Shown: piece by piece, positions 17,725 through 54,874 of the stretch
Layout: every line of letters begins with the position of its first letter
How positions within the stretch are numbered: position 1 is the first letter of the stretch
Assembly: GCA_013373085.1 (NCBI GenBank)
Contig: JABXIM010000092.1
Coordinates: 1 to 54,874, forward strand
Source of the DNA: Oceanospirillaceae bacterium
GTDB lineage: Bacteria; Pseudomonadota; Gammaproteobacteria; Pseudomonadales; Balneatricaceae
Direction: 5' to 3'
Length of the DNA: 54,874 nucleotides
Program-made: the position numbers and the translations under genes
The notes under the pieces: generated by a model
Seen by the model: only the letters and a program-made list of their open reading frames with translations
Told to the model about the DNA's origin: nothing
Databases searched by the model: none

Positions 17725-17836
17725 GGGTTAAACCTCCACGTATCCCAGCATCCAACCGCAAGCGGCACCCTGAATACTGTGTCGATACGTGTGTGTGGTC
17801 TGTATAGCCTTGATTGGCTCCCTTTCGGGAGGCGGA
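17725..17836 (-). promoter_or_regulatory. rpsB mRNA leader with conserved S2-type motif
   Basis: The minus-strand leader between promoter and start codon opens with a small hairpin (CTCCC-GAAA-GGGAG) and contains GGATACGTGGAGGTTTAACC (complement of 17725-17745). As I recall, the E. coli rpsB leader carries an almost identical GGATACGTGGAGG segment and mediates S2 autoregulation. The match is strong enough to infer the same control here. Confidence 0.7.
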
Positions 17837-51845: not shown

Positions 51846-53501
51846 ATGACTGCGACGGAACGCTCTCTACCCTTCCGGCTCAGGGCGCTCGGCGCCCTGC
51901 TCGCCGGCGGACTGACGCCACTGGCGTTCGCCCCGTTCGACCTCTGGCCGCTGGCATTGATCATGCCGGCGCTGTTCTGGCTGATCCTGCGCGACCAGAG
52001 CCCGGGACGTAGCGGCTGGCTCGGCTGGTGCTACGGCCTCGGCTTCTACGGAGTCGGCACCTCCTGGGTTTACGTCAGCATTCATACCTACGGCAACGCT
52101 TCGGTGCTGCTGGCGGGACTGCTGACCTTCGGCTTCGTCGCCGGCATGGCGCTGTTCATGGCCGCCCAGGGCTGGCTGTACGGCCGCCTGTTCGGCCGCA
52201 GCGGCCACTGGCTCGGTTTCGTCGGCCTGTGGGTACTGTGGGAATGGATCCGCAGCTGGCTGCTGACCGGCTTTCCCTGGCTCTACCTCGGCTATCCGCT
52301 GCTCGACACACCGCTGGCGGCCTGGGCACCGGTCGGCGGAGTCTGGGCCGCGAGTCTGGCGGCATTGCTGATCGGCGTCGGCGGCGCCCAATTGCTGCTG
52401 CCTGCACGCGCCTGTGGGAGCCGCGTACCCAAACTTACGGGCACTTCCTCGCGGCGAACAACAGTGCCATCCGAATATATTCGCCGCGGGGCGCGGCTCC
52501 CACAAGCGCCGCTCCCACGGCTTCTGCAACGCAATCAACGCATCGTGCCAGCCAGCCTGATCAGCATCGTGCTGCTCGGGCCGCTGCTGATGCCGGCGCA
52601 ATGGACACAGCCCGCCGGTACGCCGCTGAAGGTCGGCCTGGTTCAGGGCGACATCCCCCAGGAACTGAAATGGCAGCGCAACCTGCTGCCGGATATCCTG
52701 CTGCGCTACGAAACGCTGAGCCGTGATCTCGGGCCGGTGGATCTGCTGGTCTGGCCCGAGACCGCCATTCCGACCACCCGGGAGCGGGCCGAACCCTACC
52801 TCGCCCCCTTCCTGCAGGAACTCTCGGCCAGCGGCACCGGCCTGATCGCCGGGCTGCCATCGATCTTGCAGGACGCAAACGATCCGTCGCGACGCATCTT
52901 CCACAACAGCCTGGCGCTGCTGACACCCGACACCGCGGTCTACCATAAGCAGCGGCTGGTGCCCTTTGGCGAATATGTGCCGCTGGAAAGCCTGCTGCGC
53001 GGCCTGATCGACTTCTTCAACCTGCCCATGTCGAGCTTCAGTCTGCCGCGTGACGAGCAGGGACCACTGCCGTTCCGGGATCACCGTTTCGGCGCCGCCA
53101 TCTGCTACGAAATCGCCTATCCGGAACTGGTCCGCCGCGAAAGCCTCGATGCAGACCTGCTGTTGACCGTCTCCAACGATACCTGGTTCGGCCGCTCTTT
53201 CGCGCCGGACCAGCACCTGCAGATCGCCCGCATGCGGGCACGGGAAACCGGCCGCTGGCTGATCCGCGCCACCAACAACGGCATCAGCGCCCTGGTCGGA
53301 CCCGATGGCCGCATTCGTGCGGAGGCGCCCCGCTACCAGCCGGCGCTGCTGTCGGGCGAGGTCGAAGGTATGCAGGGACTCACTCCATACCAGCGTGTCG
53401 GTGTCTGGCCGGTACTGATGCTGGCGCTGTTCGGTTGCCTGATCGCGGCACGACCGCGCAACCAAACCGTCACGGCCGGAGCCGCCAGCCAGAGCTGCTA
53501 A
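51846..53501 (+). CDS. lnt: Apolipoprotein N-acyltransferase carrying an in-frame REP insertion
   Basis: A 551-residue inner-membrane enzyme that adds the third acyl chain to lipoproteins. The nitrilase triad is intact: Glu305 in VWPETAIP, Lys368 in YHKQRLVPFGEYVP, Cys420 in AICYEIAYPE. The protein is about 40 residues longer than typical Lnt. The excess is explained by residues about 190-225, which are encoded by a REP-type palindrome pair plus a third half-unit and lie in a loop between a membrane segment (AALLIGVGGAQLLL) and the next (IVPASLISIVLLGPLLM). The reading frame is kept, so the gene is probably functional. The start MTATERSLPF lies 14 bp after corC. Confidence 0.94.
   Translation: MTATERSLPFRLRALGALLAGGLTPLAFAPFDLWPLALIMPALFWLILRDQSPGRSGWLGWCYGLGFYGVGTSWVYVSIHTYGNASVLLAGLLTFGFVAGMALFMAAQGWLYGRLFGRSGHWLGFVGLWVLWEWIRSWLLTGFPWLYLGYPLLDTPLAAWAPVGGVWAASLAALLIGVGGAQLLLPARACGSRVPKLTGTSSRRTTVPSEYIRRGARLPQAPLPRLLQRNQRIVPASLISIVLLGPLLMPAQWTQPAGTPLKVGLVQGDIPQELKWQRNLLPDILLRYETLSRDLGPVDLLVWPETAIPTTRERAEPYLAPFLQELSASGTGLIAGLPSILQDANDPSRRIFHNSLALLTPDTAVYHKQRLVPFGEYVPLESLLRGLIDFFNLPMSSFSLPRDEQGPLPFRDHRFGAAICYEIAYPELVRRESLDADLLLTVSNDTWFGRSFAPDQHLQIARMRARETGRWLIRATNNGISALVGPDGRIRAEAPRYQPALLSGEVEGMQGLTPYQRVGVWPVLMLALFGCLIAARPRNQTVTAGAASQSC
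52414..52518. repeat. REP-type inverted pair inside lnt
   Basis: Outer arms GTGGGAGCCGCG (52414-52425) and CGCGGCTCCCAC (52492-52503) are perfect inverted copies; inner arms CGCGGCGAA (52450-52458) and TTCGCCGCG (52480-52488) are too. A third partial unit, GCCGCTCCCAC, is at 52508-52518. The left unit has CCCAAA, TACGG and CAC at offsets 14, 22 and 28, as in the pair after glnD. The 105-bp tract is 35 codons, so the frame is preserved. Confidence 0.85.
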
Positions 53502-53613: not shown

Positions 53614-53669
53614 TTTCCTATCGCAAACTTGCGATAAACCCTAATGGCTTGATAACTCGAGGTCCCGCA

Positions 53670-53990
53670 ATGGCCAACAAACAGCTTCCGCAGAACTATG
53701 TGCAGTTTCGCAGCCGCTACAAACAGCTCGCCGGTGCCGTCGACGCCCTGGGCAAGGCGGCACGGGACGAGGGTCCACTGGACGAAAAGAGCGCCCAGCT
53801 TATCCAGCTCGCCGCCGCCGCCAGCACCCGCTCCGAAGGCGCCGTCCACAGCCACGCCCGCCGTGCCCGCGATGCCGGTGCCAGCAGCGAGGAGATCCGT
53901 CACGCCGTGCTGCTGCTCGTCAGTACCATCGGTTTTCCCGCGGTGATGGCCGCGCTGAGCTGGGTGGATGATGTTTTAGAAGACAGGTAG
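53670..53990 (+). CDS. Carboxymuconolactone decarboxylase (CMD/AhpD-like) family protein
   Basis: A 106-residue protein of the AhpD-like fold. The segment EGAVHSHARRARDAGASSEE matches the family active-site helix, but the CxxC of AhpD peroxidases is absent: there is no cysteine in the protein. It may therefore be a non-redox family member or a binding protein; the substrate is unknown. The start MANKQLPQNY has GAGG 8 nt upstream. Its TAG stop codon lies inside the GTAGGG edge of the left RAYT-associated REP, so the REP supplies the stop. Confidence 0.82.
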   Translation: MANKQLPQNYVQFRSRYKQLAGAVDALGKAARDEGPLDEKSAQLIQLAAAASTRSEGAVHSHARRARDAGASSEEIRHAVLLLVSTIGFPAVMAALSWVDDVLEDR

Positions 53991-54060
53991 GGCGTCCCTG
54001 AGCGGAGCGAACGGCGCCGTAAAAAAGCCGGCACGTTTCGTTGCACTCAAGGTGCCCTAC
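53987..54060. repeat. REP pair upstream of the RAYT
   Basis: A GTAGGG..GGCGCC unit (53987-54018) faces a GGCACG..CCCTAC unit (54030-54060), separated by a short A-rich spacer. Both belong to the repeat family found after the transposase. The first overlaps the stop codon of the CMD-family gene. Confidence 0.85.
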
Positions 54061-54102
54061 GGTGGGCCGAGTGGCGCGTCGCAACAAAACCGGGAGGCAT
54101 GG

Positions 54103-54621
54103 ATGCCGAACTATCGTCGATTGTGGCAGCCGGGAGGCTGTTATTTCTTTACCGTTACCCTGCAACAACGCCAGGATAACGACCTGCTGATTCGTAAAAT
54201 CGCTCAGCTTCGGGACGCGGTAAGATATGTCCGGCAACGCCACCCATTCAGAATTCATGGCTGGGTGGTGTTGCCGGACCACCTGCATTGTCTGATTGAG
54301 CTGCCACCGGAGGACCGCGATTTCGCGATTCGATGGCGGCTGATCAAGAGCCATTTTTCGCGACAGGTCCCACCCCGGGTCTCGGCGCCGACGCGGGGTC
54401 GCGGCATTTGGCAACGCCGCTTCTGGGAGCACCTGATTCGGGACGAAGAGGACTTTCGAGCTCATATGGATTATATCCATATCAATCCGCTCAAACATGG
54501 GCTCGTGGAACGGGTAGCGGATTGGCCTTATTCAACCTTTCACCGACTCGTACGCCAGGGTATCTATGCCGCCGATTGGGCCGATGGACATCTGGCCGAG
54601 CGGTTACCCTACACGGATTAG
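54103..54621 (+). CDS. REP-associated tyrosine transposase (RAYT, Y1 HUH family)
   Basis: A 172-residue single-strand DNA transposase-like protein of the TnpA_REP group, related to IS200/IS605 enzymes. The HUH motif is in VLPDHLHCLIE (His60 and His62). The catalytic tyrosine is Tyr124 in HMDYIHINPLKHGL, and the opening MPNYRRLWQPGGCYFFTVTL is the RAYT signature. GGGAGG lies 5 nt before the ATG at 54103. RAYTs bind and cut REP hairpins and are held to spread them. REP pairs flank it on both sides within about 45 bp. The gene looks intact. Confidence 0.95.
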   Translation: MPNYRRLWQPGGCYFFTVTLQQRQDNDLLIRKIAQLRDAVRYVRQRHPFRIHGWVVLPDHLHCLIELPPEDRDFAIRWRLIKSHFSRQVPPRVSAPTRGRGIWQRRFWEHLIRDEEDFRAHMDYIHINPLKHGLVERVADWPYSTFHRLVRQGIYAADWADGHLAERLPYTD

Positions 54622-54628
54622 CGCTTGC

Positions 54629-54874
54629 GGCACGTTTCGTTGCACTCAAGGTGCCCTACCCAACGGGCACATCGTAGGGTGCCCCTGAGCGGAGCGAACG
54701 GCACCACCAAACGGCACCGCAGAAAAAAGCCGGCACGTTTCGTTGCACTCAAGGTGCCCTACCCAGCGGGCACATCGTAGGGTGCCCCTGAGCGGAGCGA
54801 ACGGCACCACCAAACGGCACCGCAGAAAAAAGCCGGCACGTTTCGTTGCACTCAAGGTGCCCTACCCAGCGGGC
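54629..54874. repeat. REP tandem array with 103-bp period, to window end
   Basis: Inverse units GGCACG..CCCTAC start at 54629, 54732 and 54835; direct units GTAGGG..GGCACC start at 54674 and 54777. The 103-bp spacing is exact in both series. The array begins 7 bp after the RAYT stop and runs off the right edge. Linkers are near identical, including an A-run, so it arose by tandem duplication of one REP pair. No gene is seen in it. Confidence 0.9.

Follow-up and report, generated by a model that had tools for sequence, protein, structure and literature searches.

Intragenic REP sequences have already been described: the main text of a 2013 study (PMC3733652) reports GTAG/CGTC REP units or dimers that lie wholly within genes of many kinds and are translated, with 20-30 residues contributed by dimers or groups and as many as 82 by clusters, and with different REPs at about the same recB site in X. 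campestris and X. oryzae. Palindromic repeats that sit in frame in genes and add residues are described likewise as Rickettsia palindromic elements (PMC10969869). REPINs, as presented in a 2011 report (PMC3116915), are inverted REP doublets that form hairpins and are associated with RAYTs; they are mainly extragenic, and only 14 of the most abundant 16-mers are reported there to overlap genes in P. fluorescens SBW25.

The locus analysed here lies in a genome of the genus Marinobacterium, within a window of 54,874 nt (the whole stretch of DNA that was analysed). The original prediction had placed a 105-bp REP pair plus half-unit inside lnt, an essential-type gene, and its coordinates were right: a head-to-head REP pair with a half-unit occupies 52414-52518, in frame, at about residues 190-225 of Lnt, with three exact head motifs. 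Gene and element are laid out as follows, most lines ending with evidence for the feature.

51846-53501, plus strand: lnt, apolipoprotein N-acyltransferase, 551 codons, its frame running through the REP element
About 52404-52523, plus strand: surplus of ~120 nt relative to five of seven genus members, boundaries placed to within a few codons (conserved-motif spacing, protein alignment)
52414-52458, plus strand: left REP of the long type, whose loop contains an additional small palindrome (head motif, near-identical copies)
52459-52478, no strand: spacer between the two REPs (position between units)
52479-52503, minus strand: right REP, standard short form, inverted (pattern match on contig C206 of G000, the genome under study)
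52507-52518, minus strand: extra half-unit, head motif only (exact head motif)
54103-54621, plus strand: RAYT gene in the window, bounded by another repeat (NF047646, 204.8 bits)

The head motif GTGGGAGCSGCG is found at 52414-52425 (plus), 52492-52503 (minus) and 52507-52518 (minus), and these are the only exact copies in the whole window (shuffle mean 0.07, with 0 of 100 shuffles reaching 3), a rarity that is gone once one mismatch is allowed (4 found, 3.43 expected). A GTAG-like head before a palindrome is present, as in REPs of the GTAG superfamily; the heads of the lnt element read GTGG, and members of its family in one and the same genome may have either GTAG or GTGG. The inverted arms (one of 18 nt with 94% complementarity, another of 12 nt with 92%) and the predicted RNA fold provide two opposed units able to form one hairpin, as in a REPIN. 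The strong hairpin anticipated for the lnt mRNA agrees with this predicted fold, which for 52400-52530 reaches -63.8 kcal/mol (z -5.05), a value that none of 200 shuffles equalled. Near-identical copies of the left REP occur on contigs C18 (96%) and C41 (98%) of the same genome, and extra heads like the half-unit also adjoin other REP copies (loci L009, L011 and L025). The codon score of the insert is -0.14, compared to 0.24 for the whole lnt frame.

Comparison of sequences across relatives confirmed that the element is an in-frame insertion in lnt. The spacing between the conserved motifs GFPWL and WTQ is 342 nt here versus 222 nt in the five of seven genus members from which the insert is absent, whilst Lnt homology resumes on either side of the insert in the protein alignment, so that the proposed alignment with relatives did localize the insertion to one loop. 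The ~35 extra residues first proposed are indeed in frame and in a single loop, but the surplus against uninserted relatives is 120 nt (40 codons) rather than 105 nt. Beyond the genus, the same Lnt region spans 48-58 residues in all 69 usable relatives (of 76 loci, seven being left out because no frame in them qualified) versus 93 in the Lnt under study; none of the 69 carries the insert, the presence of which in distant relatives had been set beforehand as the outcome that would count against an insertion. A family-wide Lnt search matched 113 of 116 genomes among the matches listed, and is not the basis for the insert counts.

The lnt enzyme looks intact despite the insert, and by its predicted translation the gene would be read through the insert into a full-length protein. 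No stop interrupts the reading frame across the REP element, and the product matched TIGR00546 at 302.3 bits (cut-off 132.9), the Pfam families LNT_N and CN_hydrolase and, in sequence and fold, the solved Lnt of P. aeruginosa and E. coli, with Lnt chains filling ranks 1-24 of a fold search made with its model. As originally predicted, all three catalytic residues remain: aligned with E. coli Lnt, E305, K368 and C420 correspond to what we take to be the catalytic triad, none of the three varies among the 42 sequences aligned, and the Glu, Lys and Cys positions are kept as well in the nearest relative, G002. Between the two genomes, dN is 0.077 and dS 0.511 upstream of the insert (dN/dS ~0.15), and 0.096 and 0.696 downstream (dN/dS ~0.14), and lnt therefore appears functional. 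That lnt is heading for loss, its expression split or cut short by the element, as the strong predicted hairpin in the message might suggest, is extremely improbable against an open frame with a full TIGR00546 match, invariant catalytic positions, a dN/dS of 0.14 beyond the insert and a frame that is open in G002 too.

The AlphaFold2 model of the product (mean pLDDT 87.6) has a low-confidence coil after helix 156-184 and before helix 225-248 (pLDDT 50-57 for blocks 191-220), and confidence is also low for residues 371-400 and at the very end of the chain. Since the insert has no counterpart in the aligned relatives, low confidence in the loop would be expected in any case, and is thus weak evidence of disorder. 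In the solved Lnt both termini are cytoplasmic and the catalytic domain bridges H7 and H8, of eight helices, in the periplasm (PMC5500888); from that description the H6-H7 loop would be cytoplasmic, and we infer that the insert lies between transmembrane helices 6 and 7 on this side. Its ~40 residues are arginine-rich. The loop has a net charge of +8, against a mean of +0.5 in 41 other aligned sequences, and the loop peptides of this Lnt and of G002 carry +9 and +15, respectively. Net-positive peptides are also what open REP-pair frames encode generally, in 95% of cases in the genome under study and 96% in G002. The 39 REP pairs of the former are stop-poor (open frames 0.744 versus 0.611 when shuffled) and the 38 of G002 show no stop depletion (0.636 versus 0.631), these pair counts replacing a stricter one that had yielded 6. 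Of the frame cases in the own-genome pairs, 39% are open in a pair with a length divisible by three.

The element belongs to a dispersed GTRGGAG-type family for which the pattern GTRGGAGSSGCG-(0-30)-GCGAA has 91 matches in the genome under study and 225 in G002; the five remaining members of the genus have 36, 11, 8, 4 and 3. A reversed-pattern control gave 0 in the genome under study, 2 in G002 and 0 to 2 per genome overall. Searching the genome by blastn with the lnt element returned at least 39 matches, itself included, from the best 40 of 84 candidates scored. An earlier pattern with a GTGG-only head and a stricter ending had found 35 in this genome, 51 in G002 and 0 in the five others; the notion that the REP family is absent from uninserted relatives was dropped when the GTRGGAG pattern found 3 to 36 per genome there. 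The two inserted species are merely the richest in GTRGGAG REPs among the genus members.

RAYTs are Y1-type transposases acting on single strands. Five RAYT matches were detected in the genome, four of these above the family cut-off, and the one on contig C1 has GTRGGAG-type REPs like those of the lnt element on both sides. Its 59% relative in G002 is likewise REP-bounded, lying on contig C5 (L138 1090-2390) between REP-pair arrays with repeated linkers and spacings of ~94 and 116 bp. GTAGGAG REPs also bound further relatives of this RAYT in G006 (62%) and G005 (56%), two genomes in which lnt is empty, and the RAYT/REP system is therefore older than the insert. The RAYT in the window was first suspected as the mobilizer because it lies ~600 bp downstream of lnt, but a different repeat bounds it (four copies, 54030-54865), which makes it an unlikely partner for the lnt element; the contig C1 RAYT is thus the better candidate.

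The repeat that bounds the window RAYT constitutes a second palindromic family at 54010-54874, and includes a 103-bp tandem array (2.4 copies, 99% matches) that reaches the contig end. Copies of this second family number nine in the genome under study, at least 45 in G002 (40 of 80 candidates scored) and one in G004, and on contig C8 of G002 they flank a related RAYT on both sides. Between lnt and the window RAYT lies a gene for a small carboxymuconolactone decarboxylase-family protein (53661-53990, plus strand), and the window also contains an Rfam t44 RNA (17727-17813, minus strand, 78.9 bits).

G002 carries REP-derived extra residues in the same Lnt loop. Its motif spacing is 420 nt (+198 nt, 66 REP-derived residues, in frame), and its insert comprises a related-type REP unit with a decayed possible partner, as judged by eye, and a REP pair that aligns better with the element under study when reversed (local score 79) than directly (36; maximum of 500 shuffles 28). 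The outer REP heads are read in the same frame in both inserts (ACGSR and RLPQ) and a 9-mer adjoining the REPs is common to both (p 0.0024, for a 9-mer picked after being seen), which together hint at common ancestry of the two inserts. The right REP of the lnt element is identical to 10 further genomic copies over 23-29 nt at a dS of 0.5-0.7 between the two lnt genes, which hints at recent insertion or conversion. This identity, together with the reversed pair orientation, would suit arrival or renewal of the REP through exchange with other REP copies, whether recombination or gene conversion, in place of RAYT-driven movement; we consider this improbable, given that a RAYT with the same REPs on both sides is present and that the loop is empty in five of the seven genus members, so that a first entry into unrelated sequence would be needed.

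The original prediction called the insert domesticated. A selected role for the basic loop or the mRNA hairpin, for example in contact with the membrane, in slowing translation between the membrane and catalytic parts or in the stability of the message, could be read from the retention by two species of basic, REP-derived, in-frame inserts in one loop, charged about +9 and +15, and from the strength of the hairpin in the genome under study (z -5.05). However, insert length, pair orientation, peptide and hairpin strength all differ between the two species, and domestication is therefore not supported; the RNA of the G002 insert folds no better than shuffled sequence (z -1.13, 27 of 200 shuffles as good) and the codon score of the lnt insert is un-genelike, leaving a selected role unlikely. 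A further, quite improbable possibility is that the H6-H7 loop is a recurrent REPIN landing or flipping site, at which the pair inverts between its arms with the frame open both ways and alternative basic loops alter Lnt folding, partners or rate; if so, this lineage would make Lnt with alternative basic cytoplasmic loops.

The expectation that REP pairs are normally intergenic held as far as examined, with 53 of the 56 pattern hits in the genome under study outside coding-like sequence. At a threshold of 0.1, the other three were coding-like on both sides in one frame and all belonged to the lnt element, one REP of which was counted twice, and such survivals are therefore rare. Two of 87 hits were coding-like in G002, namely lnt and L227, and a threshold of 0.0 added one hit in each genome (L188 and L206, respectively), the frames of which matched no Pfam or NCBIfam family. 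The L227 hit (1550-1574, G002 contig C3) is a single REP-like match, in frame, in a type I polyketide synthase KS-AT linker, and could be due to chance because the reversed-pattern control gave 2 in that genome. The totals of 56 and 87 are distinct hits in stretches taken from the genomes with 91 and 225 pattern matches, two own-genome hits near stretch ends being left out. Sensitivity of the coding call was 95% (300 random places in 12 window genes), a figure that is partly circular since the codon table was trained on the long frames of the window, which probably include at least one spurious frame.

Overall, we put at roughly four in five the probability that a REPIN was inserted in lnt, probably spread by a RAYT, and has been tolerated since it is in frame and in a permissive loop. 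A GTRGGAG-type REPIN, probably moved in trans by a RAYT, would have entered lnt where the short loop joining transmembrane helices 6 and 7 is encoded. It may have been kept because the frame was preserved, no stop arose and a basic, probably unstructured peptide could be tolerated in a cytoplasmic loop. The loop would later have gained or exchanged REP elements, so that the REP-derived insert at this position in G002 is a different one. We infer both the neutrality of the insert and the order of the insertion events. In the lnt insert, a mobile palindrome contributes protein sequence to a core enzyme of the envelope; relatives with and without the insert, and solved structures in the enzyme family, make it a clean natural example.

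As a phenomenon, in-frame REP insertion is already in print, and lnt is a further, well-documented example. Neither the lnt enzyme nor Marinobacterium had a match in the main text of PMC3733652, and a limited search of titles and abstract starts in the open literature found no lnt case of an intragenic REP. The lnt case fits the published idea that REP insertions in frame persist where a loop is permissive. It adds the point that REP-pair peptides are almost always net positive, suiting cytoplasmic loops of membrane proteins. Like REPINs as described in PMC3116915, the lnt element is an inverted doublet with a hairpin and a RAYT association, but it differs in being intragenic. Rickettsia palindromic elements, compared with it by description only (PMC10969869), differ in their length of ~150 bp, their frequency in genes and their host, Rickettsia. 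The lnt element resembles the intragenic REPs of PMC3733652, as its main text presents them, in the REP dimers inside genes and the different REPs at about one site in two species. It differs in its gene (lnt), its genus (Marinobacterium) and its site, a loop between membrane helices, and in that the matching pair is reversed in the sister species.
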